Assembly (NCBI GenBank): GCA_903935095.1
Contig: CAIZQH010000003.1
Location: 62,001-126,000 of the forward strand
Source: an uncultured Flavobacteriales bacterium
GTDB taxonomy: Bacteria; Bacteroidota; Bacteroidia; Flavobacteriales_D; Crocinitomicaceae
Direction of reading: 5' to 3'
DNA length: 64,000 bases
Notes under the pieces: generated by a model
The model's database searches: none
Told to the model about the DNA's origin: nothing
Seen by the model: only the letters and a program-made list of their open reading frames with translations
In this document: piece by piece, positions 8,579-56,208 of the stretch
Numbering within the stretch: the stretch's first letter is position 1
Layout: each line of letters starts with the position of its first letter
Made by a program: the position numbers and the translations under genes

Positions 8579-9148
8579 TTATATCCAATTTTTTTGAATT
8601 GGATCCTTTAATTGCTTTATTAATTGCTGTTTGGCTCGAAAGATCAGTGATTCCACGGCCGAAAGGGATAGGTTCATGCTTTCGCTGATTTCCTTATAAC
8701 TAAACTCGTCAAAGTGGTGTAGGGAATAAGCGGCTCTTTGATTTTCAGAAAGTTGTTGTACCGCTAGAAAAAATGCTTTGGACCGTTCCCGTTCCATCAG
8801 CACTTGCTCTGGATTGAGTTGGGACTTGTTTTCTACGCCTAGGAATGATTCATCAATGGGAACCTTAATTCCAAAACGTTTTTTTCGTTTCGCATGCCGC
8901 ATGTATTCTAGGCATTTGTTCATGGTAATGCGATGAATCCATGTCGATAGTTGTGACTCCCCTTTAAACAAGTGTTTTGATTGATAAATGGCAATAAAGA
9001 CATCTTGTGTGGCATCTTCTGCTTCCTCTCGGTTATGAAGGAGGTGCCAACACATGTTGAGGACTTTTTTTTCATAGAGATCTACGAGCTGCTCGAAAGC
9101 TAGAATGTTTCCACTTTGAAACGCGTTGATATCAATTTCTTTAGACAC
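8579..9148 (-). CDS. ECF-type RNA polymerase sigma-70 factor
   Basis: Region 2 (EDATQDVFIAIYQSKHLFKGESQLSTWIHRITMNKCLEYMR) and region 4 (SYKEISESMNLSLSAVESLIFRAKQQL). Confidence 0.93.
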   Translation of the reverse strand: MSKEIDINAFQSGNILAFEQLVDLYEKKVLNMCWHLLHNREEAEDATQDVFIAIYQSKHLFKGESQLSTWIHRITMNKCLEYMRHAKRKKRFGIKVPIDESFLGVENKSQLNPEQVLMERERSKAFFLAVQQLSENQRAAYSLHHFDEFSYKEISESMNLSLSAVESLIFRAKQQLIKQLKDPIQKNWI

Positions 9149-38728: not shown

Positions 38729-38742
38729 TGTTGTTAGTTGTT

Positions 38743-38850
38743 TAGTGACATGTGCCTAGTGCCTAGTGTGTCAGTGCCGAGTGCTCAGTGCCTAGTGCTG
38801 TTGAGTGCCTAGTGACTAGTGTGTAAGTGCCGAGTGCTCAGTGCTCAGTG
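38743..38850 (+). repeat. degenerate heptamer (AGTGNNN)n array, 5' of PHP phosphatase
   Basis: tagtgacatgtgcctagtgcctagtgtgtcagtgccgagtgctcagtgcctagtgctg...cagtgctcagtgtcggaatc. Confidence 0.9.
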
Positions 38851-38901
38851 TCGGAATCGTGGGTCATTTTCTACTATTTACTTCAAGCGATAGCGCACAA
38901 A

Positions 38902-38953
38902 CCATTAGCACATTAGCAGATTGGCACATTAGCACATTGCATTTAGCACATTA
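38902..38953 (-). repeat. decamer (TGTGCTAATG)n array abutting rfbB stop
   Basis: + strand ccattagcacattagcagattggcacattagcacattgcatttagcacatta; last TTA is the rfbB stop complement. Confidence 0.9.
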
Positions 38954-40003
38954 TCTTTTCGCATACATCGAATCATAATATTCTTGATAAGCACCGCTTG
39001 TTACTTTTTCGACCCAATCTTGGTTTTCTAAATACCAATCTAAGGTTTTGGAAAGTCCTTCTTCGAAGGTGATGGATGGTGTCCAGCCGAGTTCTTCTTC
39101 GAGTTTGGATGCATCGATGGCGTAACGTTTGTCGTGACCAGCACGATCTGTAACGTAGGTAATCAATCCTTCGGATTCTCCAGTTGCTCTTCCGAGTTTT
39201 TGGTCCATGAGTTGGCAGAGAAAGCGCACCAATTCAATGTTTGTCCATTCGTTGAGTCCACCAACATTATACGATTCTCCGATTCTTCCAGTATGGAAAA
39301 TAGCATCAATCGCGCTGGCGTGGTCTTCTACCCATAACCAATCGCGGATGTTGTCCCCTAAGCCATAAACAGGCAAAGGTTTTTTGTGTTTAATGTTGTG
39401 AATCATCAAGGGAATCAACTTTTCTGGAAAGTGGTGACTGCCATAGTTGTTGGAACAATTAGACATTTTAATGGGAAGTCCATACGTGTGATAAAAGGCC
39501 ATAACGAAATGATCCGAGGACGCTTTCGACGCTGAATAAGGACTTCTTGGATCGTAGGACGTATGTTCAGTGAACAAGCCTTCGTCACCTAAACTTCCGT
39601 AGACTTCATCCGTGGAAACATGGTGAAAAACATGTCCCCCTGTTCCGTTCCACGCTTCTTTTGCTGCTTGAAGGAGGTTAACTGTCCCCACGACGTTTGT
39701 CATGACGAATTCCATCGGACCTTCAATAGAACGATCCACGTGTGATTCTGCCGCCAGGTGAATGACATCCGTTACCTGATATTTCTGGAAAATGGCACGA
39801 ACCGCATCCGCATCGACAATATCTGCGCGTTCGAAACGGTAATTCGGATGATCCGCCATATCTTTCAGGTTTTCTAAATTTCCTGCATAGGTCAATTTAT
39901 CCAAGTTCACGATGAGGTAATTTGGATAATTGGTCAAAAAACGTCGAACAACGTGTGACCCTATGAATCCGGCACCGCCGGTGATGATGATGGTTTTTTT
40001 CAT
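38951..40003 (-). CDS. rfbB: dTDP-glucose 4,6-dehydratase
   Basis: GGAGFIGSHVVRRF, HVSTDEVYGSL, YSASKASSDHFVMAFYHTYGLP motifs. Confidence 0.95.
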   Translation of the reverse strand: MKKTIIITGGAGFIGSHVVRRFLTNYPNYLIVNLDKLTYAGNLENLKDMADHPNYRFERADIVDADAVRAIFQKYQVTDVIHLAAESHVDRSIEGPMEFVMTNVVGTVNLLQAAKEAWNGTGGHVFHHVSTDEVYGSLGDEGLFTEHTSYDPRSPYSASKASSDHFVMAFYHTYGLPIKMSNCSNNYGSHHFPEKLIPLMIHNIKHKKPLPVYGLGDNIRDWLWVEDHASAIDAIFHTGRIGESYNVGGLNEWTNIELVRFLCQLMDQKLGRATGESEGLITYVTDRAGHDKRYAIDASKLEEELGWTPSITFEEGLSKTLDWYLENQDWVEKVTSGAYQEYYDSMYAKR

Positions 40004-40015
40004 ATTCTAGTTGTT

Positions 40016-40093
40016 TAGTGACTAGTGACTAGTGCTTTTGAGTGCCTAGTGCTCAGTGCTCAGTGAACAGTACTCAGTGAACAGTGCTCAGTG
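40016..40093 (+). repeat. heptamer (AGTGNNN)n array, 5' of rfbB
   Basis: tagtgactagtgactagtgcttttgagtgcctagtgctcagtgctcagtgaacagtactcagtgaacagtgctcagtg. Confidence 0.92.
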
Positions 40094-40094
40094 T

Positions 40095-40178
40095 CGGAAT
40101 CCGCTCTCTGCTCTCGCTCTCACTCTGTTTCTCTCCGCCGCGGCGGACTGTTTCTCACTCTGTTTCTCACTCTGTTTA
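40095..40178. repeat. CTC-rich repeats around GC palindrome, abutting dehydrogenase stop
   Basis: gctctctgctctcgctctcactctgtttctcTCCGCCGCGGCGGActgtttctcactctgtttctcactctgttta. Confidence 0.8.
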
Positions 40179-41471
40179 CAGGGACCAATACGTCAAATCG
40201 TTTATTTTTCCACGGTAAATTCCTTTTACATCCACGAAAACGCCTTTGCGATCTTTCATCATTCCTTTGAAATAATTCTCGTCGAATTGACAGTATTCGC
40301 GGTGATTGACTGCTAAGATGATGGCGTCGTAATCCTTACGGATGTCTGTTGCTAGTCCTACGCCATATTCGTGTTCCATTTCGGATGAATCTGCGTGTGG
40401 ATCTATCACATCGACGTTAATTTGGAATGACTTTAATTCATTAACTACATCAATTACCTTGGAATTACGGATGTCACTTACGTTCTCTTTGAAGGTCGCG
40501 CCCATCACCAAAACATGTGCTTCTTGGATCATTTTTCCTTGGGCGATGATTTTTTTTGCTGTTTGTTTACCGATGTAAAAGCCCATGGAATCATTCACGT
40601 AGCGACCAGAGTTGATCACTTTGGAATGGTAACCCAATTGCATGGCTTTGTGCACCAAATAATATGGATCGACTCCAATGCAATGTCCACCGACTAGGCC
40701 TGGGTAGAATTTCAAGAAATTCCATTTCGTTCCTGCCGCTTCGAGTACATCAAAGGTATTGATGCCCATTTTATTGAATATGATCGACAATTCGTTCACC
40801 AAAGAAATGTTCACGTCTCGCTGCGTGTTCTCCACGATTTTCGCTGCTTCTGCTACTTTGATGCTCGTCGCACGGTGGACCCCCGCCGCAACAACTAATT
40901 CGTAGGTCTTTGCAATCTGATCAAGCGATTCTTCGTCGCAACCTGATACGATTTTAATGACATTTTGCAAAGTGTGTTCTTTGTCTCCCGGATTGATGCG
41001 CTCCGGTGAATACCCAACTTTGAAGTCCTCCGGGAATTTAAGTCCAGATTCTGCTTCCAAAATTGGAATACAATCCTCTTCTGTACATCCTGGATACACC
41101 GTGGACTCAAATACCACGTAATCGCCTTTTTTCAGTACTTTTCCCACCGTACGACTCGCGCCCAACAATGGTTTTAAGTCTGGAAGGTTGGTATCGTCAA
41201 TTGGAGTGGGAACAGCGACGATGAAGAAGTTAACATCCGCTAATTCGTTGATATCCGCTGTAAAGGTAATGTCACGGTTCTCAAAATCTGCCGCTTCCAA
41301 TTCACGACTTGGATCTTCCCCTCGACGCATCATGTCCACACGTACTTGGTTGATGTCAAATCCTACGACTTTCACGCGTTTCGCGAATTCCAAGGCAATC
41401 GGTAATCCGACGTAGCCCAGTCCGACTAGTGCGAGTTTTGCTTCTTTTTTAATTAGGTTTTCGTAGATCAT
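40176..41471 (-). CDS. nucleotide sugar dehydrogenase (UDP-HexNAc dehydrogenase, TviB/WbpO-like)
   Basis: LALVGLGYVGLPIALEFAK, FESTVYPGCTEEDCIPILE, GGHCIGVDPYYL motifs. Confidence 0.9.
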   Translation of the reverse strand: MIYENLIKKEAKLALVGLGYVGLPIALEFAKRVKVVGFDINQVRVDMMRRGEDPSRELEAADFENRDITFTADINELADVNFFIVAVPTPIDDTNLPDLKPLLGASRTVGKVLKKGDYVVFESTVYPGCTEEDCIPILEAESGLKFPEDFKVGYSPERINPGDKEHTLQNVIKIVSGCDEESLDQIAKTYELVVAAGVHRATSIKVAEAAKIVENTQRDVNISLVNELSIIFNKMGINTFDVLEAAGTKWNFLKFYPGLVGGHCIGVDPYYLVHKAMQLGYHSKVINSGRYVNDSMGFYIGKQTAKKIIAQGKMIQEAHVLVMGATFKENVSDIRNSKVIDVVNELKSFQINVDVIDPHADSSEMEHEYGVGLATDIRKDYDAIILAVNHREYCQFDENYFKGMMKDRKGVFVDVKGIYRGKINDLTYWSL

Positions 41472-41489
41472 AGTATTTTGTATTAAAAT

Positions 41490-41577
41490 CAGTGATCGGT
41501 GCTCAGTGCCGAACTCCGTTCTTTATTTTAGTTATCAGTGCCTAGTGACTAGTGACTAGTGCCTAGTGACTAGTGTG
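41490..41577 (+). repeat. heptamer (AGTGNNN)n array (interrupted), 5' of nucleotide sugar dehydrogenase
   Basis: cagtgatcggtgctcagtg ... cagtgcctagtgactagtgactagtgcctagtgactagtg. Confidence 0.88.
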
Positions 41578-41611
41578 GTGCTTCGGATCTTTACTCCCTT
41601 CAACCTCAAGC

Positions 41612-41674
41612 TCCGCCGCGGCGGAAGCGCACAAATCATTAGCAAATTGGCACATTGTCAAATTAGCACATTGT
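41612..41674 (-). repeat. GC palindrome plus decamer array at oxidoreductase 3' end
   Basis: tccgccgcggcgga...cattagcaaattggcacattgtcaaattagcacattg; runs into the CDS stop at 41658. Confidence 0.88.
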
Positions 41675-42686
41675 TATCTCGTACTTTGTAAATTCGTTCA
41701 ATAATCTCCACAACTTTCATTCCTTCTAGTGCATTTGTTGTCGGGGAGGTGCGTCCTTTTAAGGAATCGATGACATTCGTAATCACGTAGTTGTGGTTCG
41801 CAGCAGATCCTTTGTATGGACCGTAGTCGTTTCCTGGGTTTGTTGGTGCTAACTCGGGCATTTCGTAATTGGTGATGTTGCACACCTCGACTTCGTTCAT
41901 GTATTGTCCACCGATTTTCACGGATCCATTTTTTCCGATGATCGTCATGGAGGATTCTAAATTCTGATTGGCAACGGATGTCGAATAGTTCAAAGAACCC
42001 ATTCCACCGTTGATGAAGTCAAAGCTCACGAAGCCTGAATCTTCGAAGTCCGTGTAGTCTTTGTGGTTGAAATCTGCGAATTTCCCTTGGATGTTGTCGA
42101 TGTCGCCAAACAACCAGTACATGATGTCGATGAAGTGACTGAACTGCGTGAACAGGGTCCCACCGTCTAAATCTGAGGTTCCTTTCCATCCACCGGCTTT
42201 GTAATAACGCTCATCACGGTTCCAATAACAATTCAACTGAACCATGTAAATATCACCCAAGACCTTGCGGTCGATGAGGTCCTTGATCCATACAGATGGA
42301 GGGGAGTAACGGTTTTGCATGACGCAAAAAACTTGCTTGGAAACTTGCAACGATTTGTAAATGATACGCTCACAGCTTTCCTTGGATAAACCCATCGGTT
42401 TTTCACAGACCACGTGTTTTTTGTGCTCCAAGGACAATAGGGCTTGCTCCGCGTGTAGACCATTCGGAGTACATACATTGATCACATCGAATTCCAATCC
42501 GCTGGCGAATAGTTCTTCCATCGTGGTGAAGAAAGGCACGTCGAAATCTAGTGCTTGACATTCCTCTTTACCACGGATATCAACCATGGCAATTAATTCT
42601 CCTTCGGCATCACGACGGATCATCTCCGCATGACGTTTTCCAATGTGTCCGGCGCCGATGACGGCAAATTTGATTTTGTTGTTCAT
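41658..42686 (-). CDS. Gfo/Idh/MocA oxidoreductase (WbpB-like)
   Basis: Rossmann GAGHIGKRHAEMI, VCEKPMGLS; genomic context with WbpD/WbpE-like genes. Confidence 0.85.
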   Translation of the reverse strand: MNNKIKFAVIGAGHIGKRHAEMIRRDAEGELIAMVDIRGKEECQALDFDVPFFTTMEELFASGLEFDVINVCTPNGLHAEQALLSLEHKKHVVCEKPMGLSKESCERIIYKSLQVSKQVFCVMQNRYSPPSVWIKDLIDRKVLGDIYMVQLNCYWNRDERYYKAGGWKGTSDLDGGTLFTQFSHFIDIMYWLFGDIDNIQGKFADFNHKDYTDFEDSGFVSFDFINGGMGSLNYSTSVANQNLESSMTIIGKNGSVKIGGQYMNEVEVCNITNYEMPELAPTNPGNDYGPYKGSAANHNYVITNVIDSLKGRTSPTTNALEGMKVVEIIERIYKVRDNNVLI

Positions 42687-42696
42687 AGTTTATTTA

Positions 42697-42744
42697 TTAG
42701 TGAACAGTGAACAGTGCTCAGTGAACAGTGCTCAGTGCTCAGTG
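42697..42744 (+). repeat. heptamer array, 5' of oxidoreductase
   Basis: attagtgaacagtgaacagtgctcagtgaacagtgctcagtgctcagtg. Confidence 0.9.
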
Positions 42745-42755
42745 CCGCTCGCTGT

Positions 42756-43340
42756 TTATCGCTCCCTTTCTCTTTCTCGCTCTACAATGTTCTCGTTCAA
42801 GGTATATTTATCTCCACTCTCCGGACATTCTGCCACACCATTTTCATCAAAATTCAAACGGTGACCAAATTCGGACATCCAGCCGATTTGACGTGCGGGA
42901 TTTCCAACTACTAAGGCGTAATCGGGAACGTGTTTCGTAACCACTGCTCCGGCACCGATAAAGGCGTAGCGTCCGATGTCGTGACCGCAAACGATGGTCG
43001 CATTGGCACCGATACTGGCGCCTTTTTTGACAATCGTTTTCAAATAACTGTCTCGGCGAATGACGGCACTACGTGGATTCATGACGTTCGTGAAAACCAT
43101 CGATGGACCCAAGAAGACATCGTCCTCGCAGATGACACCCGTGTAGATGGACACGTTGTTTTGTACTTTTACGTTGTTTCCGAGAATGACTTCTGGAGAA
43201 ATCACCACATTTTGTCCGATGTTACACGACAATCCAATGGTGCAGTTGGGCATGATATGCGAAAAATGCCAGATCTTGGTTCCTTCACCAATCTGACATC
43301 CTTCATCAATAACCGCCGTTTCATGTGCGAAATACTTCAT
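42756..43340 (-). CDS. left-handed beta-helix acyltransferase (WbpD/WlbB-like)
   Basis: Hexapeptide repeats ([73 protein letters not shown]). Confidence 0.88.
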
Positions 43341-44327
43341 TTACTTGGTAATGTATTTATCAAAATTATAATGATCTGTTTCCAATAATTCTTCTTTGCT
43401 CAAACTTTGGAAATAAGCATATGTTCGTTTTAATCCTTCGCTTCGGTCGATTTTTGGCTCCCAATTTAGGATTTCACGCGCCTTCGTGATGTCTGGCTGA
43501 CGCTGTTTCGGGTCATCTACCGGTAAATCTTTGTAAATGACTTTTTGTGTCGTACCCGTTAAGGCGATGATTTCTTCTGCGAATTGTGAAATCGTTATTT
43601 CCGATGGATTACCAACGTTTACTGGATACGGGTAATCACTCATCAACAAGCGAACGATTCCTTCGACTAAGTCATCGACGTAGCAGAATGAACGTGTTTG
43701 AGATCCGTCACCGAAAACAGTGAGGTCTTCTCCGCGCAATGCTTGTCCAATGAACGCAGGTAGCACGCGTCCGTCGTTTAAGCGCATGCGTGGACCATAG
43801 GTATTGAATATACGCACGATGCGTGTTTCAACTCCGTGAAAATTGTGGTAAGCCATGGTGATCGCCTCTTGGAAGCGTTTGGCTTCGTCGTAAACGCCAC
43901 GTGGACCCACAGGATTCACATTTCCCCAATAATCTTCTGTTTGCGGATGAACGGTTGGGTCTCCGTATACTTCCGAAGTGGAAGCAATGATCAAGCGTGC
44001 TCCTTTTGCTTTCGCAAGTCCGAGGCAATTATGGATGCCCAAGGACCCCACTTTCAATGTTTGAATCGGAATCTTCAAGTAATCAATTGGACTCGCAGGA
44101 GAAGCGAAGTGTAGTATGTAATCTAATTCTCCCGGAATGTGGATGAATTTCGATACGTCATGGTTGTAAAATTCGAATTGTTCCAAGGGAAACAAGTGTT
44201 CGATGTTTTTCAGTCGTCCGGTGATGAGGTTATCCATCGCAATGACATGGTAGCCATCCTTGATGAAACGGTCACACAAATGCGACCCTAAAAATCCGGC
44301 TGCCCCGGTGATGAGTACTCGTTTCAT
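43341..44327 (-). CDS. UDP-glucuronate decarboxylase-like SDR (UDP-xylose synthase type)
   Basis: [52 protein letters not shown]. Confidence 0.88.
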
Positions 44328-45640
44328 TTCTCCACAAGGTTACGACCAATGCTCGAATAATAGAATCCTTTTTCGTTCATTTCGTCAATTTCATATAAGT
44401 TTCTACCATCAAAGATCACCGCATCTTTCAAACGATTTTTGACTTCAGGGAAGTTTGGATTACGGAAGATACTCCATTCCGTGCAAATCAATAGTGCGTC
44501 TGCTTGATTTAATACGCTGTACTCATTCTCTGCGAAAGTGATTTTGTCTCCCAAAATACGTTGTACATTTGGCATCGCTTCCGGATCGTATGCGCTTACC
44601 GTTGCACCTGCTTGCAGCAATTCCTCGATCATGTACAAGGCTGGTGCCTCGCGGATGTCATCCGTATCCGGTTTAAAGGCTAAGCCCCAAATGGCGATGT
44701 GTTTTCCGGATAAGTCCCCGCGGAAGAAATTCTTCATTTTCGGGAACAATTTTGTTTTTTGGTCCTGGTTGACTTCCATCACTGCGGAAAGAATCTTGAA
44801 ATCGTAGTTGTTTTCGATTCCCGACTTCGCCAAGGCTTGCACGTCTTTTGGAAAACATGACCCACCGTAACCGATTCCTGGGAACAAGAAACGTTTGCCA
44901 ATGCGGCTATCGGAACCAATCCCGATGCGTACTTTGTCTACATCTGCTCCCACCAATTCACAGAAATTGGCGATTTCATTCATGAAGGTGATTTTCGTTG
45001 CCAAAAAAGCGTTCGCTGCGTATTTGGTCAATTCGGCGGATTTCTCATCCATGAAGTAAATCGGATTCCCTTGACGAACAAATGGTTTGTACAAACTGTC
45101 CATGACCTTGCGCGCACGCTCATCGGATGTTCCAATCACCACACGGTCTGGCTTCATGAAGTCGCTTACCGCATATCCTTCGCGCAAAAACTCTGGATTC
45201 GATACTACCGCGAATTCCACCGTTGCATGTGCTGCAATCGCTGCGGTTACTTTCTCTGCTGTTCCAACAGGTACGGTACTCTTGTCAACGATCACTTTGT
45301 AATCGGTCATAATCTTTCCTAATTCCTTCGCGACACCAAGAATGTAGGATAAATCCGCCGATCCATCTTCTCCTGGGGGCGTTGGTAATGCAAGGAAAAT
45401 GATTTCCGCATTCTTGATTCCCGCCGCTAAATCTGTTGTGAAATTCAGGCGTCCCGCTTTGATGTTGCGTTCGAACAATACGTCCAATTCTGGCTCGTAA
45501 ATCGGAATTTCGCCGTTTTGCATTTTTGCGACTTTATTGGTGTCGATGTCTATGCAAATGACGTTGTTCCCCGTTTCAGCGAAACAGGTTCCGGTTACTA
45601 GGCCGACGTAGCCGGTGCCGACAACTGCGATGTTTTTCAT
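44324..45640 (-). CDS. ugd: UDP-glucose 6-dehydrogenase
   Basis: [44 protein letters not shown]; start at MKNIAVVG (45640). Confidence 0.93.
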
Positions 45641-45675
45641 ATGAATAGTTATTCGTTCCTTGTGCGCTTGCACGC

Positions 45676-45719
45676 TCAGTGAACAGTGCTTTCGAGTGCT
45701 CAGTGAACAGTGCTCAGTG
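45676..45719 (+). repeat. heptamer array, 5' of ugd
   Basis: ctcagtgaacagtgctttcgagtgctcagtgaacagtgctcagtg. Confidence 0.9.
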
Positions 45720-45788
45720 CGTTTGTTAATTAGCTAATATTGGTTAACGTGTTCAATTTATATAAGTTCATTTTTTTAAACGATTCCA

Positions 45789-45834
45789 CACTGAGTACTG
45801 TTCACTGAGCACTGAGTACTGATCACTGTTCACA
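45789..45834 (-). repeat. inverted heptamer array, 3' of four-helix-bundle gene
   Basis: cactgagtactgttcactgagcactgagtactgatcactgttcacag; 25-nt arm pairs with 45695-45719 (1 mismatch). Confidence 0.9.
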
Positions 45835-45836
45835 GC

Positions 45837-46208
45837 TCATTGTTTCCCGTTCAATAGGTATTTCCTAAGACCATGGGTCATTTTTCTTACTTCGATTAAT
45901 TTATCATTCAAGGAATTAAAATCTTCCTCTGTAATCAATTTTGTGTCGAAAGAAAATCTTAATTGATTTCTCAATTCATCATTTGACCCCATCGCAATCA
46001 GTAAAAATCGTGCGAAATCTTTTTTAGACTTGCGTCCGAATCCTTCAGCGATGTTCGATGAAATGGATAGGGATGATCTTAACATTTGATCTTTAATGGC
46101 CCATTTTTTATCAAAAGATGACTCGTTTGTCAATCTATTTATTTCTAGTGCGACTTCGTACGCACGTTGCCATGCGTTTAGGTCTTCGTGTCTTTTTATC
46201 AGTGCCAT
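45837..46208 (-). CDS. four-helix-bundle protein (S23/23S rRNA-IVS family)
   Basis: LNAWQRAYEVALEINRLT...FDKKWAIKDQMLRSSLSISSNIAEGFGRKSKKDFARFLLIAMGSNDELRNQL. Confidence 0.88.
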   Translation of the reverse strand: MALIKRHEDLNAWQRAYEVALEINRLTNESSFDKKWAIKDQMLRSSLSISSNIAEGFGRKSKKDFARFLLIAMGSNDELRNQLRFSFDTKLITEEDFNSLNDKLIEVRKMTHGLRKYLLNGKQ

Positions 46209-46268
46209 TTTTCGAATTTCTTGTGAAAACGATTTGTGGCATGTTTTATTGTGTTGTTTCTAGTTTTT

Positions 46269-46318
46269 AGTGCTCAGTGCTTAGTGCTTTTGGGTGCTCA
46301 GTGAACAGTGATCAGTGC
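46269..46318 (+). repeat. heptamer array, 5' of four-helix-bundle gene
   Basis: agtgctcagtgcttagtgcttttgggtgctcagtgaacagtgatcagtg. Confidence 0.9.
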
Positions 46319-46389
46319 GTTTGCTAATTATCTACTCCTGGTTATTTTGTTCAATTTATTCATATTCAATTTCATTTTAAATGATCCAG

Positions 46390-46414
46390 CACTGTTTACT
46401 GAGCACTGTTCACT
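46390..46414 (-). repeat. inverted heptamer array, 3' of aminotransferase gene
   Basis: cactgtttactgagcactgttcact immediately before the stop codon complement at 46417. Confidence 0.9.
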
Positions 46415-46416
46415 AT

Positions 46417-47541: not shown

Positions 47542-47564
47542 CGAATCTTATTTTTTAATAATAA

Positions 47565-47590
47565 AAAAGGCGATCAATTGACCGCCTTTT
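47565..47590 (-). terminator. terminator-like hairpin upstream of aminotransferase / downstream of OmpA gene
   Basis: AAAAGGCGatCAATTGacCGCCTTTT. Confidence 0.7.
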
Positions 47591-47607
47591 AAAGTTAGCA
47601 CTGCGGT

Positions 47608-48915
47608 TTAACGAACAATGGCAAATTGCACACGACGATTCGCCGCATCCACTTCCAATGTATTTCCTGCATATTTTGTTTCTTTTTTCCCTTTGTATGA
47701 AATCACTAAACGACTTTTGTCAGCACCTTTCTTTGTTAGGTACTCAACCACAGTGTTTACACGTGATTCAGAAAGTTTGTTATTCACAGCGTCACCACCT
47801 TCGATGTCCGCATGTCCGCTAACTGCAATTTTTTGTGTTGGATGAGCAGCCATATAAGCCACCACATTATCCAATATACCATAATAGGCATTGTTAATGT
47901 AAAAAGATCCTTTCACGAACATCACGTCGTAAATCCCTGATTCGATCAATGTTTTTGCGTCTTTCTCCGGAGAATGTTCTTCTGGACAACCCTTAACTGT
48001 ACCTTTTACCGTTGGACACTCATCTTTACCATCAACGAATCCATCACCGTCAGTATCAATCGTGTTCAAGTCTGGCGCTGGAGTTGGAACGATTGTTTTC
48101 CCAGTCACATCCACCATGTTTCCAGCAGGCGTGTTTGTTTCTTGATCAACGGCATTGATGACTCCATCTTTATCGTCGTCACCTAATTTCGTTGCCGCTT
48201 CTTTCGCTTGTTTTTCCAATGCAGCGATTCGGTTCAAGTCTTCCTCACTCAAACGTGGTGTATAGGTCCAGTCAGCGTGTGTTTTCGCTTTACCGAAGTA
48301 ATAACTGAATCCAACCGTTGCTGTAGCGTAGTAACCAGAGAAACCACCTCCTTGTACTGGTGTTGCTTCGAAATCGAAACCGTTGTTTTGACGAATATTC
48401 CCCATGAAAGAGATGTCACCATTGATGCTCAATCGCTCATTTACTTTGAATTGCGGAGTGATTCCTATGATTCCTTGTAACATTTCGTCAACAGAACCTT
48501 CTTCTGCTTTGAACAATTCTTTTGGACCATCGATCAAAGCTTTGTTCCACATGGTCGCGTATCCACCACCCATGTGCAACAACATTCCCCAACGAGAGGT
48601 GAAGTCATTCATATGTAGCAAGTCTGTTAAGTTGAATGTCGGTTGGACAGAAAAGCGCAAAGCATTTGTTGCTGGATGACCGTCTGTAAAATTGAAGTGG
48701 TCAAATCCAACATCGAATTTTAATCCAACGCGGTTATTGAACATGTGACGTGCGTTCACCTCATAATGAGTGAATTGATACAAACGAGTTGTGTGCATTG
48801 TATTGTGCATCCCGTCATGTCCACCGATGTTAAATCCAAACGAACATTTGTTGTAATCTTGAGCAGATCCCAAAATGGAAATCATGCTGAAAAAGGAGAA
48901 TAATAATCGGTTCAT
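47608..48915 (-). CDS. OmpA family protein with TSP3-type calcium-binding repeats
   Basis: N-terminal barrel, DTDGDGFVDGKDECPTVKGTVKGC, C-terminal OmpA domain (VSGHADIEGGDAVNNKLSESRVNTV). Confidence 0.9.
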   Translation of the reverse strand: MNRLLFSFFSMISILGSAQDYNKCSFGFNIGGHDGMHNTMHTTRLYQFTHYEVNARHMFNNRVGLKFDVGFDHFNFTDGHPATNALRFSVQPTFNLTDLLHMNDFTSRWGMLLHMGGGYATMWNKALIDGPKELFKAEEGSVDEMLQGIIGITPQFKVNERLSINGDISFMGNIRQNNGFDFEATPVQGGGFSGYYATATVGFSYYFGKAKTHADWTYTPRLSEEDLNRIAALEKQAKEAATKLGDDDKDGVINAVDQETNTPAGNMVDVTGKTIVPTPAPDLNTIDTDGDGFVDGKDECPTVKGTVKGCPEEHSPEKDAKTLIESGIYDVMFVKGSFYINNAYYGILDNVVAYMAAHPTQKIAVSGHADIEGGDAVNNKLSESRVNTVVEYLTKKGADKSRLVISYKGKKETKYAGNTLEVDAANRRVQFAIVR

Positions 48916-49120
48916 GTGTGTGTGTTTTGTTACAAAGGTAAGTTTTTACTCTTAAATGCCGCTTTTAACTTGTAATAATGCAAAAAAAAATCTAATTCTT
49001 TTTCTGGTTAAAAATGGTTTTTCTCTATTAAAATAGTGTAATTTTCTTTTTAACCTTTCAAATTTCCATTTCCACTTGTTTAGCCTTTTCAGTGAAAATA
49101 CTTTTGATTCTTCTGAAATT

Positions 49121-49414
49121 AAAATAGGGTAAAATAGGGGAAAATATAATTTTTTAAAGGTTTATTATTAAACAAATATAGTCGTTTTATTTAAACTAAA
49201 TAAAAGTATTGAAAACTTATGGTAAATTCGAGTTATGACGACTTTTCCAGAGTGAAATAAGTGTTCAATTGAGAGGGTTATCATTCAGTAAAAAACCTAT
49301 AATATATTGGGTTTTACATGAAAAGCACACATTCAAATAGCGTGTAATATGATTAAATTGTTAAGAATTTATAAAAAGTCCTAATAAATAGGGTAAAATA
49401 GGCGAAAAAAGGTA
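49121..49414 (+). promoter_or_regulatory. AT-rich upstream region of upxY with duplicated AAATAGGGTAAAATAGG(G/C)GAAAA motif
   Basis: aaaatagggtaaaataggggaaaatat (49121-49147) and aaatagggtaaaataggcgaaaaaagg (49386-49412). Also TATATTTG at 49413-49420 resembling the Bacteroidetes -7 box (TAnnTTTG). Confidence 0.4.
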
Positions 49415-49435
49415 TATTTGTTTTATCAATAACCT

Positions 49436-49984
49436 ATGAATCTAACAACTACACTAAGCGCACAAGCATCCGTCTACCGCAAGCCCTCATTGGAGCAGAA
49501 GTGGTACGTAGTGTATACGAAGCATTTAGCGGAAAAAAAAGTTTCGGAGCGATTTCAAGTTGCGGGGATCGAGCATTACCTTCCGGTTTACACGACGATT
49601 CGTCAGTGGAGTGACCGTAAAAAGAAAATCGAAAAACCATTAATCAATTCTGTTGTGTTTGTGAAAACGAGCGAACGTGCTTTGAATGAACTTTATTCCA
49701 TTCAGGGGATTCATGGTGTATTAAAATATTTGGGACGTCCAGCTGTAGTTCAAGCACACGAGATTTTGAATCTTCGCATATTGTTGCAAGAGGTACATGT
49801 CGAGGATATTGAACAAGTGGACATCCAAGCAGGAGATTTGGTGGAAGTCATCCGTGGTCCCTTCAAGGGCATGCAGGCTTGCGCGATTCAACTGCAAAAT
49901 TCCATGCGACTGATCATCGAGATCAAGAACATGGGGGTTGGGTTTTCGGTAAACGTGCCGAAGACGTACGTGAAACGTTTGTAG
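49436..49984 (+). CDS. UpxY-family (NusG-like) transcription antiterminator
   Basis: KWYVVYTKHLAEKKVSERF NGN domain and KOW (AGDLVEVIRGPFKGMQACAIQ). Confidence 0.9.
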   Translation: MNLTTTLSAQASVYRKPSLEQKWYVVYTKHLAEKKVSERFQVAGIEHYLPVYTTIRQWSDRKKKIEKPLINSVVFVKTSERALNELYSIQGIHGVLKYLGRPAVVQAHEILNLRILLQEVHVEDIEQVDIQAGDLVEVIRGPFKGMQACAIQLQNSMRLIIEIKNMGVGFSVNVPKTYVKRL

Positions 49985-50050
49985 GCGCGCAGCCGCCACG
50001 GTTTCATGTAAGAATGTTGGTTAGTCTGTGGGACTAGCTGCGGCGAAGCC

Positions 50051-50081
50051 GTTTTTAGTTTGCAGAGCAAACTAAAAAAAA
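50051..50081. terminator. strong stem-loop downstream of upxY
   Basis: gTTTTTAGTTTGCagaGCAAACTAAAAAaaa symmetric A/T-flanked hairpin. Confidence 0.65.
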
Positions 50082-50135
50082 TGTGCCAATCTGCTAATGT
50101 GCCAATCTGCTAATGATTTGTTCCGCCAAGGCGGA
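50081..50135 (+). repeat. decamer array plus GC palindrome variant
   Basis: atgtgccaatctgctaatgtgccaatctgctaatgatttgttccgccaaggcgga. Confidence 0.9.
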
Positions 50136-50205
50136 ATAGTTATCGGTTTATAGCAGAAATAGGAGTGAGCTTATGTGGTTCAGAGATGAACAGTGGGTGT
50201 AAATC

Positions 50206-50553
50206 TTAGGTGTTTCGTTTAGCGGTAGAAATAATACGACTGAGCAATTTGCCTATTTGTTGAGACTCCGAAAGAAGAGTGTCACAGTTTAAAGAATAAC
50301 TGGCTTTGCAGATTTCGAGCCAATAAATAGTTTCCTCACATTCCTTAGATGCAATTTTAAGTTTGTGAATAAAATCAGATTTGGATTCCGCGTGTTGAGC
50401 TTCACGAACATTTGCTCCAATGGAGGTTCCAGATTTTAAAAGTTGATTAGCAATCACAAAATATTTCTGAGATTGTAACTCTTGACAAAAAGACACGGTC
50501 AAAAGCGCAAACTCAAATGATTTAGTCAATAAAGGGTTCTTTGATTCAGCCAT
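50206..50553 (-). CDS. four-helix-bundle protein (S23/23S rRNA-IVS family), second copy
   Basis: FEFALLTVSFCQELQSQKYFVIANQLLKSGTSIGANVREAQHAESKSDFIHKLKIASKECEETIYWLEI. Confidence 0.9.
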   Translation of the reverse strand: MAESKNPLLTKSFEFALLTVSFCQELQSQKYFVIANQLLKSGTSIGANVREAQHAESKSDFIHKLKIASKECEETIYWLEICKASYSLNCDTLLSESQQIGKLLSRIISTAKRNT

Positions 50554-50618
50554 AATTTAGAGAACGCAAAAAGTAAAAAAATATTTTCTTCGTTCAAACA
50601 GTTAATACATTTCCTATC

Positions 50619-50683
50619 TGAGCGGAGCTCAGAGCCAACAGCTACCCATTAGCACACTGGCACACTGGCACATTAGCACATTA
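50619..50683 (-). repeat. hairpin, GAGCCAACAG motif and decamer array upstream of fcl
   Basis: TGAGCggaGCTCAgagccaacagctacccattagcacactggcacactggcacattagcacatta. Confidence 0.88.
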
Positions 50684-50694
50684 TTAAAGCACCA

Positions 50695-51654
50695 TTGAAA
50701 ACGATCACAAAAAATTCTAAAATCTACATCGCAGGACACCGAGGAATGGTCGGAAGCGCTATCTGGCGTGCGCTAGAAAGTTCTGGCTACACCAACCTCC
50801 TTGGAAAAACCAGCCGCGAATTAGATTTAAGAAATCAAGAAGCTGTTCAAGCATTTTATGCCCAAGAAAAACCAGACGTAGTCATCGACGCTGCGGCTAG
50901 GGTAGGGGGAATATTAGCAAATAACAATTATCCGTACCAGTTCTTGATGGAGAACATGCAGATCCAGAATAATTTGATTGATGGCGCGTTTCAGGCGGGT
51001 ATTCAAAAATTTATTTTCCTGGGAAGCTCCTGTATTTATCCGAAGTTGGCAGCTCAGCCTTTGAAAGAGGAATGTTTATTGACGGCTTCACTCGAACCAA
51101 CAAATGAATGGTACGCATTGGCGAAAATCAGTGGCGTGAAAGCGTGTGAAGCGATTCGCACCCAATTCGGACACGACTATGTCAGTTTAATGCCGACAAA
51201 CCTTTACGGATACCACGATAATTTCGACTTACAAACCTCGCATGTATTACCAGCGATGATGCGCAAGTTTCACGAAGCCAAGCTCAAGGGACACGCTCCT
51301 GTTCAGCTTTGGGGATCGGGAACACCGATGCGTGAGTTCTTGTTTGTCGATGATATGGCATCCGCAGTTGTCTTTGCTTTAGAAAACAAATTACCGGAAC
51401 ACCTCTACAATGTTGGAACAGGTGTGGATTTGACCATCAAGGAATTAGCACTAGCGATTCAAGAAGTCGTTGGACACGAAGGAAGCATCGAGTGGGATGC
51501 TTCGAAACCAGACGGAACACCGCGTAAATTAATGGACGTTTCCAAACTGAAAAATGCAGGATGGGCATACAAAATATCCTTACAAGAAGGCATCGCACTG
51601 ACCTATCAATGGTTATTGGATAACCAAACACATTTAAAAGAAGTCAAACTATGA
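50695..51654 (+). CDS. fcl: GDP-L-fucose synthase
   Basis: [47 protein letters not shown] start just downstream of the decamer array. Confidence 0.93.
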
Positions 51655-52733
51655 AAACGGCACTCATCACCGGAATCACCGGCCAAGACGGATCTTACTT
51701 AGCGGAATTGCTCATCGAAAAGGGCTACATGGTACACGGTATCAAGCGTCGTGCTTCGTCGTTCAATACGCAGCGCATCGACCACATCTATCAGGATCAA
51801 CACAGCTCGGAGCTCAATTTCAAATTACACTATGGAGATTTAACAGACTCCACGAACATCATCCGCATCATTCAAGAGGTGCAGCCTGACGAAATCTACA
51901 ACCTTGGGGCGATGTCCCACGTGAAGGTTTCCTTTGACTCTCCGGAATACGTGGCGAATGTCGATGGACTCGGAACCCTTCGTATACTCGAAGCGGTACG
52001 CATCCTCGGACTCGAAAAGAAAACGCGCATCTACCAAGCCTCTACTTCAGAGCTATATGGTGGATTTCCAGAAAATAAAAACGAACACGGATTCTACGAC
52101 GAAAAGTCGCCGTTTTATCCACGTTCACCTTATGGCGCTGCGAAAATCTACGCATATTGGATCACGAAAAATTACCGCGAGGCTTACGGAATGTTTGCCT
52201 GCAACGGAATTTTATTCAACCATGAGTCACCGCGTCGTGGCGAAACCTTCGTGACCCGCAAAATCACGATGGCGACAGCTGCCATAGCACTCGGAAAGCA
52301 AGACTGTTTGTATTTAGGTAACCTCAATGCACTTCGTGACTGGGGACATGCCAAAGATTACGTCGAGGCAATGTGGAGAATGTTGCAACGAGAAACTCCA
52401 GAAGATTTCATCATTGCCACCGGAAAAACAACCAGCATCCGTGACTTCGTTCGCATGGCCTTCCAAGAGATCGGCGTCACACTCACCTTCGAGGGAAGCC
52501 AAGAAAACGAGATTGCCAAAGTACAGGCCTGTTCGAATCCTGCTTACCAACTCGAAATTGGCAAAGTGGTCGTTCGTGTGGATCCAAGTTATTATCGTCC
52601 GACAGAGGTTGATTTACTTCTTGGGGATCCGACGAAAGCCAAAACACAATTGGGATGGACTCCGGAATACGATTTGGCTTCTTTAGTGAAAGAAATGGTA
52701 CTTAGTGATTTGAGATTTGTGACTGGTGATTAG
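51651..52733 (+). CDS. gmd: GDP-mannose 4,6-dehydratase
   Basis: [56 protein letters not shown]; overlaps fcl by 4 nt. Confidence 0.96.
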
Positions 52734-52890
52734 TCCGCCGCGGCGGATCAGTGACTAGTGACTTGTGCTCAGTGCCTAGTGCTCAGTGCTGGATTTATGG
52801 GAAGGAAATGAGTGCTCAGTGCCTAGTGCTCAGTGCTGGATTAATGGGATGGAAATTAGTGCTCAGTGCTCAGTGCTCAGTGCTGGATTC
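52734..52890 (+). repeat. GC palindrome, heptamers and three ~47-bp higher-order tandem units
   Basis: tccgccgcggcgga then units at 52765, 52812, 52859: gtgctcagtgcctagtgctcagtgctggatttatgggaaggaaatga and variants. Confidence 0.93.
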
Positions 52891-52976
52891 ATGGGAACTC
52901 TAACAATTTTTTTGCGTCAACAAACGAGTTGATCGTTAATAGTCTCTAATCTCGAGAACAAATTATATTTCTTTAC

Positions 52977-53333
52977 CCAGGAACCACACTCCTAGGCATC
53001 TGAAAATAGAATATCGACATTAATAAAGCGGTTTTGAAACTGCATGAAAACGAGCTAATGCTAAGCTTAGCAGTATGCTCAAGCGCAAGCATCTCGTTTT
53101 CAAAAGTTGATAAAACCCTTCGCTTCGAAGCAAAATTAAGCAATCAGCTTAAGATCTGCGAAGGGAGCTTTTCCGCCGCGGCGGAAGGAGTCCGAAGTGT
53201 CGGGCTTGATTTTTTGTTACTCCCGGCACTAACGTTTGGTCTTCGAAAGCAGTGCTTTCTCTTTATCAAGCAAAAAGTAAAAAGAAAAAAAGAGTAATCC
53301 TGAGCGAAGCGAAGGATTACGATAAAAAAAACT
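52977..53333. repeat. ~357-bp structured repeat element, copy 1
   Basis: Near-identical and essentially collinear with 55759-56115 (offset 2782); nested inverted repeats. Confidence 0.92.
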
Positions 53334-53336
53334 AAT

Positions 53337-53417
53337 CTTCGCTTGCGAAGAGCCAACACCTACCCATTAGCACATTGGCATCCCGACGAATAGTCGGGAC
53401 AGGCATTAGCACATTGT
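53337..53417 (-). repeat. hairpin plus decamer array with inserted palindrome
   Basis: CTTCGCttGCGAAGagccaacacctacccattagcacattggcaTCCCGACgaataGTCGGGAcaggcattagcacattg. Confidence 0.87.
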
Positions 53418-53513
53418 AATTTTCACTAAAAAATTTTTATTAATACTACCCCCAAGCAACTTCTAACAAAACACTTTCGTTAACTTTGCAATCTCGAAAA
53501 ATTTCAAAAAACA

Positions 53514-54380
53514 ATGCGCTTAAAAAACCTCTTTAAAACCCATTTTGAATACCTCAGATTTTGTCTGCGTCAGCGTTTTATTAAAATTGCACATTTTTTT
53601 CTTTTCGTTCTTTTCGTTTACATTCTCATCGAATGGCAGCACGAGAATAACCTTTACCGCAACATCGGACACGCAGTGCGCATTCATGCAGCGGATGTAG
53701 ATGATACCACGGTGGTAAAAGAAGCGATGACTTCGATCAATGACATCATGCAAAGCAGGCATGAGTTGTTTCGGGGGACAGAGCAATACAGTTGGAAACA
53801 ATCGGCCTTTCAGTCAGCGGACATTGACCTCATGTACGGATCAGGAGCTTGTGGGGGATTCTCCAAGGTACTTGCACGAACACTGCAATTGCAAGGACTC
53901 GATGTACGCATCGGACAATTGAAGACCTTGAAATTGGGTTTTGGTGGACACATCATCATTGAGTATTACTCAGAAACCTTACACAAATGGGTCTTTGTGG
54001 ATCCACTCTTCATGTTAATTATTCGTCAGAAAACCGGCGATTGGGCCTCTGTCCAAGAAGTAGCAAAAAACTACCACTTGTACAGTGACCAAATGCCCAT
54101 AGAATTCAACCAACGCTTTCAATTCGACGACGTCCGTTACACCAACTGGGACAAATGGCTCGGATTATCCAAACCCTACTATTACCTTGCGAAACTCTTC
54201 AAAGGAGAGCGCTACGCGAATACGATTTGTTTGAGAATGTATACGCTGAGTTCGTTTCCAGTGTTGTTTTGGAGTTTGGAGATAGTTTACTTGGTGTTAA
54301 TGGGGGTTGGTTTTTGGCGGTATCGTCGGAAGCAACACCGAGTGCTCAGTGCTCAGTACCGAGTGATCAGTGCTCAGTGA
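53514..54380 (+). CDS. membrane-anchored transglutaminase-like protein
   Basis: Candidate Cys-His-Asp triad (GSGACGGFSKVLART; GGHIIIEYY; WVFVDPLF), TM segments at both ends. Confidence 0.65.
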   Translation: MRLKNLFKTHFEYLRFCLRQRFIKIAHFFLFVLFVYILIEWQHENNLYRNIGHAVRIHAADVDDTTVVKEAMTSINDIMQSRHELFRGTEQYSWKQSAFQSADIDLMYGSGACGGFSKVLARTLQLQGLDVRIGQLKTLKLGFGGHIIIEYYSETLHKWVFVDPLFMLIIRQKTGDWASVQEVAKNYHLYSDQMPIEFNQRFQFDDVRYTNWDKWLGLSKPYYYLAKLFKGERYANTICLRMYTLSSFPVLFWSLEIVYLVLMGVGFWRYRRKQHRVLSAQYRVISAQ

Positions 54381-54393
54381 TCAGTGTGGGATT
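54347..54393 (+). repeat. heptamer array overlapping the 3' end of the transglutaminase-like CDS
   Basis: cgagtgctcagtgctcagtaccgagtgatcagtgctcagtgatcagtg; CDS stop TGA lies inside it. Confidence 0.93.
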
Positions 54394-54453
54394 TTTTATA
54401 TCGATAACACTTTTGGTATAAAAGTTCAATAATAGATTTTTCGTTATTTTTTC

Positions 54454-54527
54454 TCCGCAGCGGCGGAAGAGTAATTTGCCAATCTGCTAATGTGCCAATC
54501 TGCTAATGATTTGTTCCGCCAAGGCGA
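54454..54527 (+). repeat. GC palindrome (54454-54467) and decamer array (54477-54509) with distal terminus and GC palindrome variant
   Basis: tccgcagcggcgga...tgccaatctgctaatgtgccaatctgctaatgatttgttccgccaaggcga. Confidence 0.88.
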
Positions 54528-54609
54528 AAGAGGTTAAATGTTTACAGCAGTCCAACACGGCGGAAGAACACGAAACAACAAAACAAACGATTCACAATAA
54601 ACAGAGAAT

Positions 54610-54678
54610 GACCCTGAAGGGGTCAAACCTCCATACAAAAAACGCATTCACGAGAAACCACAACCCTGAAGGGGTTGA
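54610..54678 (-). repeat. inverted copy of the 37.4-kb repeat plus a related palindrome
   Basis: gaccctgaaggggtcaaacctccatacaa (reverse complement of 37392/37465 motif) then caaccctgaaggggttg. Confidence 0.85.
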
Positions 54679-54728
54679 ATTTCAAAGAAACAATAGACAA
54701 AACACAAAACTTATCCGAGCGTAGCGAG

Positions 54729-54796
54729 GAGCCAACAGTAACAAATTAGCACACTAGCACATTAGCACACTAGCACACTAGCACATTAGCACATTG
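54729..54796 (-). repeat. GAGCCAACAG motif and decamer array running into the wzm start
   Basis: gagccaacagtaacaaattagcacactagcacattagcacactagcacactagcacattagcacattg. Confidence 0.9.
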
Positions 54797-55666
54797 AAAA
54801 CCATCAACGAACAAACTAACAACCCCGCCCCAGAATGGGACCTCGTCATCGAGCCCCAATCCTCTCTCTTCGAACTCCACCTCGCAGACGTCTGGCGCTA
54901 CCGCGACCTATTGTGGCTCCTCGTAAAGCGTGATTTCGTTTCGTTTTACAAGCAGACCATTCTCGGACCCCTGTGGTTCTTCATTCAGCCCTTGTTTACG
55001 ACGATCATCTTTACGTTTATCTTCGGGAACTTGGCGGGACTCAGTACAGACGGACTTCCGCAGCCTTTGTTTTATATGGCTGGAATCACCGCTTGGAATT
55101 ACTTTGCAGATTGTTTGACCAAAACATCGACCGTGTTCCGGGATAATGCCAATATCTTTGGAAAGGTCTATTTCCCGCGATTGATCATGCCCTTGAGCAT
55201 TGTGGTGAGTAACCTCGTGCGTTTCGGTGTGCAGATGATCTTGTTCTTTATGATGGTTGGCTATTACGCCTTCACCGGAGCAGATTTCCACATGAATATT
55301 TTTGTCTTGTTGTTCCCAGTGCTTGTGCTCATGATGGCACTCCTCGGACTCGGACTCGGCCTCATCATCACCGCATTGACCACCAAGTACCGCGATTTAG
55401 CCTTCTTGATTTCCTTCGGAGTCCAACTCATGATGTATGCCACAACCGTCATATACCCACTCAGCGCCGCACCTGCGAAATACAAATGGCTCATCGAACT
55501 CAATCCAATGACTGGTATTATAGAAGCTTTTCGTTATGGATTTTTAGGCCAAGGGGAGTTGACGATGAATACACTTGGTTACTCCGTTATTGTGACAATA
55601 GTATCTCTGGTTTTAGGAGTTGTGATATTTAATAAGACGGAGAAAACCTTCGTTGATACGGTATAG
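54794..55666 (+). CDS. wzm: ABC-2 type polysaccharide export permease (Wzm-like)
   Basis: DLLWLLVKRDFVSFYKQTILGPLWFFIQPLFTTIIFTFIFG; TTG start within/adjacent to the repeat. Confidence 0.92.
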   Translation: MKTINEQTNNPAPEWDLVIEPQSSLFELHLADVWRYRDLLWLLVKRDFVSFYKQTILGPLWFFIQPLFTTIIFTFIFGNLAGLSTDGLPQPLFYMAGITAWNYFADCLTKTSTVFRDNANIFGKVYFPRLIMPLSIVVSNLVRFGVQMILFFMMVGYYAFTGADFHMNIFVLLFPVLVLMMALLGLGLGLIITALTTKYRDLAFLISFGVQLMMYATTVIYPLSAAPAKYKWLIELNPMTGIIEAFRYGFLGQGELTMNTLGYSVIVTIVSLVLGVVIFNKTEKTFVDTV

Positions 55667-55667
55667 A

Positions 55668-55728
55668 ATGTGCCAATGTGCTAAACTGCCAATGTGCTAA
55701 TTAGTGCTCAGTGCCTAGTGCTCAGTGA
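55668..55728 (+). repeat. decamer array fused to heptamer array, 3' of wzm
   Basis: atgtgccaatgtgctaaactgccaatgtgctaattagtgctcagtgcctagtgctcagtg. Confidence 0.92.
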
Positions 55729-55758
55729 GGGTTTATAAGTATAAAAATTATTCATTTT

Positions 55759-56115
55759 CCAGGAACCACACCTCTGGGCATCTGAAAATAGAATATCGAC
55801 ATTAATAAAGCGGTTTTGAAACTGCATGAAAACGAGCAAATGCTAAGCTTAGCAGCATGCTCAAGCGCAAGCATCTCGTTTTCAAAAGTTGATAAAACCC
55901 TTCGCTTCGAAGCAAGATTAATCAATAAGCTTAAAATTTGCGAAGGGAGCTTTTCCGCCGCGGCGGAAGGAGTCCGAAGTGTCGGACTTGATTTTTTGTT
56001 ACTCCCGGCACTAACGTTTGGTCTTCGAAAGCAGTGCTTTCTCTTTATCAAGAAAAAAGTAAAAAGAAAAAAGGAGTAATCTGAAGCGAAGCGGAAGATT
56101 ACGACAAAAAAAACA
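55759..56115. repeat. ~357-bp structured repeat element, copy 2
   Basis: See copy 1. Confidence 0.92.
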
Positions 56116-56175
56116 AGCTTCGCCTTGGCGGAGCAAATTAAACAAAAACATAAAAGCTTCCGGACGTAAAGTCGG

Positions 56176-56208
56176 CTCCGCGACTGCGGAGATGCATTAG
56201 TACAATTA
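56176..56208 (-). repeat. hairpin and degenerate decamer upstream of wzt
   Basis: CTCCGCgactGCGGAGatgcattagtacaatta. Confidence 0.6.

Follow-up and report, generated by a model that had tools for sequence, protein, structure and literature searches.

Short-repeat arrays in a polysaccharide island of an uncultured Crocinitomicaceae bacterium are most likely the inverted arms of IVP-bearing mobile elements

The subject of this report is a series of short tandem-repeat arrays in the polysaccharide locus of an uncultured Crocinitomicaceae bacterium (GenBank assembly GCA_903935095.1; 2.48 Mb in 29 contigs). The stretch studied, referred to here as the window, comprises 64,000 nucleotides of one contig (C3:62001-126000), and positions are those of the window unless a contig is named. 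A first-pass annotation had observed that the arrays bracket individual genes and had proposed either a system that exchanges single-gene cassettes or a structural system at transcript ends. The likeliest reading of the bracketing repeats is as inverted arms of a small mobile element, widespread in bacteria and known until now mainly from insertions in ribosomal RNA (rRNA). It is probable that the gaps of the array-bearing island are filled by mobile elements of the intervening sequence (IVS) type, and by derivatives of these that lack the IVP gene, inserted in the short stop-to-start spacers of genes that are usually co-transcribed.

The IVSs of rRNA are described as having an inverted-repeat stem and being excised by RNase III, with GACAGAT heptamers in the Coxiella IVS; in the same account the IVP protein is described as a pentamer and the function and mobility of its gene are said to remain unclear (PMC4990558).

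The two IVP genes of the window

Two small open reading frames (ORFs) bracketed by arrays, at 45837-46208 and 50206-50553, both match 23S_rRNA_IVP (PF05635). The first, IVP1, has heptamers on both sides and sits between the DegT and Ugd genes, the same place that it occupies in two relatives (G015 and G002). The second, IVP2, has octamers on both sides. Both copies are located between protein genes and not inside 23S rRNA. By sequence, the IVP family structures 2gsc and 2rld are the PDB relatives of IVP1. The two spacers around IVP1 (45674-46416) resemble one another as direct repeats (77.6% over 143 bp), and inverted heptamer arms are present in each. Gene names here and below were read from the protein sequences unless Pfam is cited; genes were called from ORFs plus a codon score, and distances from array to ORF may be off by one start codon. 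The components of the IVP1 and IVP2 elements, and of an octamer element without an IVP gene, are as follows.

45676..45720 (+), heptamer arm, 5' end of the Ugd gene 44324-45673
45789..45833 (-), heptamer arm, 3' end of IVP1, inverted relative to 45676-45720
45837..46208 (-), IVP1, 23S_rRNA_IVP / four-helix-bundle protein (PF05635, E 9e-35)
46267..46317 (+), heptamer arm, 5' end of IVP1
46388..46414 (-), heptamer arm, 3' end of the DegT aminotransferase gene
50080..50115 (-), IVP2 element, octamer arm on the IVP2 3' side
50206..50553 (-), IVP2, 23S_rRNA_IVP protein of the period-8 clade (PF05635, E 1.5e-21)
50647..50683 (+), IVP2 element, octamer arm on the IVP2 5' side
54472..54795 (+), IVP-less octamer element, left arm 54472-54508 (-) and right arm 54745-54795 (+)

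IVP genes and inverted arms across genomes

The association of IVP genes with inverted arms extends well beyond the window. A survey was made of the best-scoring IVP matches, with metagenome-assembled genomes (MAGs) among the sources and control genes taken from one genome. For 60 IVP genes from 60 genomes of the phylum the match between the upstream flank and the reverse complement of the downstream flank had a median of 25, compared with 16 for cross-locus pairs, and the own-arm match lay above the 95th percentile of the null for 58% of the IVP genes but for only 2.7% of 149 backbone genes. In autocorrelation the IVP flanks peaked at lags 7 and 14 without a further strong peak, whereas control genes were flat. 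The sequence of the arms varies between IVP loci while the two arms within one locus agree. The 5' arm was G-rich relative to the 3' arm in 69 loci, with the reverse in 12. Inverted arms read alike on either strand, so that a polarity rule of the kind seen in the island needs no gene direction.

Most of the sampled IVP copies elsewhere also lie between protein genes. Fifty-one of 53 were downstream of a gene on the same strand, 44 had co-directional genes on both sides, and the spacers occupied include sdhA-sdhB, nuoC-nuoD, fadJ-fadA and sufB-sufC. IVP genes on plasmids from five other phyla (Cyanobacteria, Treponema, Chlorohelix, Monoglobus and Azospirillum) share the architecture seen in the phylum of the studied bacterium: own-arm matches were 48 against 16 for cross-locus pairs and exceeded the 95th percentile in 67% of cases (n=18, including one from a Bacteroidota plasmid). 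One of these, L355 on plasmid AZO_p2 of Azospirillum lipoferum, is an IVP gene with inverted GGACAGA-type heptamers amid apparent 23S rRNA sequence; recognised by its flanking text rather than by an rRNA model, this copy is likely a 23S rRNA IVS. Five plasmid IVP genes (L338, L343, L345, L348 and L354) were seen inside defence operons, at cas6/cas4, cas10/cmr3, cas2/cas1 and hsdS/hsdR. The presence of IVP in cas loci has been noted earlier (PMC3936711).

Unit length follows the IVP clade

The length of the repeat unit is related to the phylogeny of the IVP protein. In the IVP2-type clade, found in genera such as Flavobacterium, Pontibacter and Hymenobacter, 41 non-redundant loci gave autocorrelation peaks at 8 and 16 only (+0.099 +/- 0.009). 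When periods were called over the pooled set none of 148 control genes had one, and mapping the 7 or 8 unit label on the protein tree required 6 changes as opposed to 20 after shuffling, with 0 of 500 shuffles as low. Inside the IVP2 clade the own-versus-cross comparison of arms was a weak test, with 12% of loci exceeding the 95th percentile, because the arms are alike across genera.

The relatives compared within the genus were 41 congeners, apparently Crocinitomicaceae MAGs. Each array family sits on its own IVP clade or clades here (8 changes, equal to the minimum; 0 of 200 shuffles), partly because several of the entries are orthologues at one site. Octamers are present in five of the 41. 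An IVP2-type gene flanked by octamers was found in four of these, G000, G002, G015 and G036 (truncated in the G036 gene call); completeness of the remaining genome, G032, is 66%. A search beyond the genus for relatives of a third IVP, which is associated with a 12-nt family, turned up only distant IVPs. It is possible, although we put this forward tentatively, that IVP proteins are ring proteins of which each clade reads an array with its own length of unit, 7 or 8 nt, and duplicates or extends it, thereby moving itself and spreading its arms.

Insertion sites and derivatives without IVP

A view of insertion is given by the spacer between sdhA and sdhB. In 23 congeners it is 5-14 nt long; in G034 (526 nt) and G005 exactly this spacer is filled by an IVP gene and its GGCAATA arms. 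Three other congeners have a longer spacer without arms of the GGCAATA type. Two loci at different sites of G003 are alike only over ~660 bp around the IVP gene, and at one of these sites G005 carries a different IVP element within the same conserved flanks. Two IVP2 copies on one contig of one MAG (L228 and L229) are 96% identical over 456 nt, and outside this region only array pieces are alike. What is repeated and looks mobile is the gap, and not the gene as the term cassette had implied: in relatives IVP genes with such arms are inserted precisely between conserved genes, and one genome can carry related elements at different sites.

Within the island, the octamer gap at 54472-54795 has no IVP gene and shares arm-adjacent sequences with the IVP2 element at 50080-50690 (90% over 78 bp and 77% over 96 bp). 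With the arrays masked, IVP2 ends from other genomes match about a dozen sites of the island. A ~400-nt intergenic repeat also carries the IVP2 5'-side motif at one end. For the heptamer arrays no link to IVP1 was found beyond the unit itself.

Array families and polarity in the island

Heptamers and octamers were found at the positions given by the first-pass annotation, and the heptamer unit AGTGNNN was as it had stated. What it had described as a decamer, TGTGCTAATG, is a period-8 array with the unit TAATGTGC/GCACATTA by Tandem Repeats Finder and is thus an octamer. There is in addition a minor third repeat family, CTCGCTCT/CTCACTCT, with a 12-nt period at 40102-40177.

The outward polarity that had been claimed was borne out when orientation was tabulated against ORF ends. 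Within 60 bp of an end, 22 arrays of this island were outward and 3 inward; the corresponding figures were 25:0 in other sampled regions (other genomes, mostly of relatives, and other contigs of this genome) and 20:2 in loci from the whole phylum. One of the three inward cases (42699-42744) has two ORF ends at a distance of 12-13 bp and reads outward from the other one of them. Beyond 60 bp the orientation is mixed (7:5 in the island itself).

In the 240 kb of C3 that were fetched, all arrays lie in C3:100.7-162.8 kb except for one two-unit octamer match in a gene. This 62-kb island runs from window position 38.7 kb to ~37 kb past the window end. The AT-rich segment at 57-64 kb is array-free as claimed, and the array-free stretch reaches ~75 kb. 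Nor are arrays equally common inside genes: 5.8% of array bases are coding in an island that is 82% coding. A search of the genome gave 74 matches to the heptamer pattern against 3 for a reversed-pattern control and 44 to the octamer pattern against 0, with a few further heptamer arrays on contigs C10, C13, C22 and C24 and further octamers on C10, C12, C17, C22 and C25. No match to Rfam was found within the window. The remaining arrays of the window, together with the ~400-nt repeat, are listed here.

38743..38850 (+), heptamer (AGTGNNN) array, 5' end of the CpsB/CapC gene
38903..38953 (+), octamer array (GCACATTA on the + strand), 3' end of the rmlB-like gene, joined to a ACAAACCATTAGCA motif resembling the IVP2 3' side
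40016..40093 (+), heptamer array, 5' end of the rmlB-like gene; unrelated repeats in the orthologous gap of two relatives
40102..40177 (+), array of the third family (CTCRCTCT, period 12 nt), containing a CCGCCGCGGCGG palindrome; repeats like these flank the third IVP, G000:C20:36254
41490..41575 (+), heptamer array, 5' end of the nucleotide-sugar dehydrogenase-like gene 40176-41471
41637..41674 (+), octamer array with the IVP2 3'-side motif, 3' end of the oxidoreductase-like gene 41658-42686
42697..42745 (+), heptamer array; its gap measures 69 nt, and the orthologous gap has none in G015 and a different one in G002
52748..52897 (+), heptamer arrays in three blocks with a 47-nt period, after the nucleotide-sugar dehydratase-like gene 51651-52733
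52960..53415 (+), ~400-nt intergenic repeat whose end carries the IVP2 5'-side motif plus an octamer arm
53362..53416 (+), octamer array, interrupted, on the upstream side of ORF 53514-54380
54337..54386 (+), heptamer array, in overlap with the stop codon of ORF 53514-54380
55667..55701 (-), octamer array immediately following the ABC-2 permease gene
55703..55727 (+), heptamer array, in a gap shared with the octamer array 55667..55701

The palindrome TCCGCCGCGGCGGA has nine occurrences in the 240 kb of contig, every one of them within the island. Its sites (40134, 41612, 52734, 53172, 55954 and four past the window) are in array-bearing gaps, and it may represent a second small repeat family. 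The ~400-nt repeat is present at 52960-53415, 55745-56123 and 80286-80735 and in part at ~75.2 kb (75239) and ~81.6 kb (81599). Its pieces are 82-94% identical, differ in length and are oriented like the genes, and direct repeats of it flank a variable gene block.

Proposed mechanism and points against it

A complete element would consist of an IVP gene (PF05635) between two inverted arms, each a tandem array with a unit of 7 nt in most clades or 8 nt in the IVP2 clade. By analogy with the IVSs of rRNA, the arms may pair in a polycistronic RNA to give a long stem with the IVP frame in its loop. RNase III would be expected to cut such an intergenic stem as it does in rRNA, so that insertion between genes might be tolerated. 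The link between clade and unit length suggests that a ring-shaped IVP pentamer could recognise its own repeat unit and promote the spread of element and arms in trans. Arms left without an IVP gene would then persist and drift, giving rise to the arrays seen by the first-pass annotation. Outward polarity is accounted for because inverted arms read alike inward from both edges of a gap, that is, outward from both flanking genes.

A number of observations do not sit easily with this proposal. Of the IVP loci that do not belong to the IVP2 clade, about half show a weak period or no clear one, and one conserved IVP lineage (G000:C17:8592, at 8592-8900) has no arms. In the window itself, the layout at IVP1 differs in that arm pairs flank the gene on both sides in two similar spacers instead of forming one outer pair, and IVP2 lies on the strand opposite to that of its neighbours. 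Most heptamer arrays of the island are tied to IVP1 by the unit only, the test of subterminal homology having covered the octamer family only. The gaps at 38729-38950 and 40004-40175 fold no better than shuffles. Finally, no match to the reverse transcriptase family PF00078 was found in this genome, so that movement driven by a reverse transcriptase would be without a partner here.

The arm-less lineage has orthologues in G002, G015, G032 and G036, with similar upstream and downstream sequence in five species, and has possibly been domesticated.

Alternative explanations

The alternative that survives best is that the arrays are host RNA elements (terminators or hairpins for processing or stability) born by slippage and kept by selection, with IVP genes tolerating or using them. 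Convergent arms do fold: the gap at 45674-45836 folds far better than shuffles (z -10.7), several other gaps reach -4 to -5, and duplexes between the arms of one locus are stronger than cross-locus duplexes (p 2e-8). The octamer-palindrome-heptamer layout of one gap is moreover kept across species despite sequence drift. This explanation is nevertheless unlikely, given that arms come together with an IVP gene at a spacer of 5-14 nt in relatives, that unit length tracks the IVP clade and that control genes have no arrays. The transcript-end structural system suggested by the first-pass annotation stands to the extent that it fits better than cassette exchange. A stem joining both ends of one gene's transcript was considered and rejected as a general rule; many genes have different families at their two ends.

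It is very improbable that the arrays are the ends of single-gene cassettes swapped between O-antigen loci by a dedicated system, as was first proposed from the outward orientation of nearly all arrays relative to the nearest gene end and from their clustering in the polysaccharide island. In sister species an orthologous gap whose neighbours are conserved can carry arrays, lack them or carry another family, and since conserved neighbours flank differing repeats in three species, in the parts of the relatives' genomes that were compared, arrays turn over without gene exchange. The variable gene block (56.2 kb to ~71 kb), which was not found in the sampled contigs of relatives, has no arrays inside. 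The same arms are also found in the sdhA-sdhB, nuo, suf and fad spacers, none of which is an exchanged cassette.

Plain replication slippage at any site, with selection alone orienting the products, for example by purging ATG- and GTG-rich strands from 5' leaders, has very little to recommend it as a full account. In the observed orientation the 5' sense strand does lack most ATG and GTG, and an excess of heptamer repeats in bacterial genomes, for which there is no accepted cause, has been on record since 2007 (cited in PMC4692102). Slippage leaves unexplained why 3' ends have the same polarity, why arms are complementary, why unit length is clade-specific and why insertion is precise. Homologous recombination between the ~400-nt repeats (55.7-56.1 and ~75.2 kb), swapping O-antigen segments with the arrays as passengers, is scarcely credible as the source of the arrays: direct repeats flank the block (the right copy partial, ~90% over 197 bp) and relatives lack it in their sampled contigs, yet array origin and polarity are unexplained by such exchange, which is in any case compatible with insertion of IVP elements.

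Significance and comparison with known systems

The tie between IVP genes and arrays gives heptamer repeats and IVP genes one testable origin, in which the IVP family predicts the unit length next to it and for which precise empty sites offer a starting point. An array close to a gene end is not necessarily a regulatory site or the border of a cassette. If this is true, an origin in mobile elements would explain many orphan 7-nt repeats in bacterial genomes, and if the reading of IVP as a ring protein is also true these elements would be a protein-guided mobile class without a transposase or reverse transcriptase of its own, entering stop-start spacers and acting as a source of many orphan heptamers.

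A term search of the open-access literature, limited to the text so retrieved, found no publication linking IVP genes to arrays between protein genes. The first-pass annotation had known of no named family with such polarity; the rule is real and general, but polarity of this kind is partly on record (PMC4679880, PMC4692102). The TAACTGA repeats of Beggiatoaceae, Cyanobacteria and some Bacteroidetes resemble the window arrays in being intergenic tandem 7-nt units that are mostly forward upstream of starts, and one Bacteroidetes set is reverse just after the stop (PMC4679880). The 5' leaders of the window differ in having CACTGAT-type units. A post-transcriptional regulator was proposed for TAACTGA, and the account consulted for that study makes no link to IVP (PMC4679880). 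The GGGAATC and GGGGA(C/T)T heptamers of Xanthomonas and Nostoc and the short tandemly repeated repetitive (STRR) sequences of cyanobacteria are likewise intergenic, variable in length and without an assigned role (PMC4692102). In Xanthomonas convergent GGGAATC pairs number 70-75 per genome, and the Xanthomonas and Nostoc heptamers were studied as G-quadruplex repeats, with no link to IVP in the account consulted (PMC4692102). Xanthomonas does have an IVP gene of its own, XCC0516.

Miniature inverted-repeat transposable elements (MITEs), repetitive extragenic palindromes (REP) and bacterial interspersed mosaic elements (BIME) share with the window elements a small size, intergenic position, inverted ends and gene-less derivatives. 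A non-autonomous copy sharing its ends with a gene-bearing element, as for a MITE, is found in 54472-54795 relative to the IVP2 element, for the octamer family only. The arms in the window are tandem arrays, in contrast to these systems, and the gene is IVP and not a transposase or RAYT; to our knowledge IVP is not a known transposase. The single Y1_Tnp match of the genome lies on contig C23, outside the island, and ties no RAYT to the repeats. Integron gene cassettes have a one-sided attC, whereas the arrays here are at both ends and made of tandem short units. Diversity-generating retroelements, with which IVP has a fold relative in Avd, differ in that the window's genome has no PF00078 match.

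The closest parallel is the 23S rRNA IVS with an S23/IVP frame, as described in Coxiella and Leptospira (PMC4990558, PMC11270868), in which, as in the window, a PF05635 gene lies between terminal inverted repeats capable of forming a stem. The apparent IVS of Azospirillum shares inverted heptamer arms with the window elements. What distinguishes the latter is their position between the protein genes of operons, their longer arms of tandem arrays with a clade-specific unit, and the IVP-less derivatives that fill the island.

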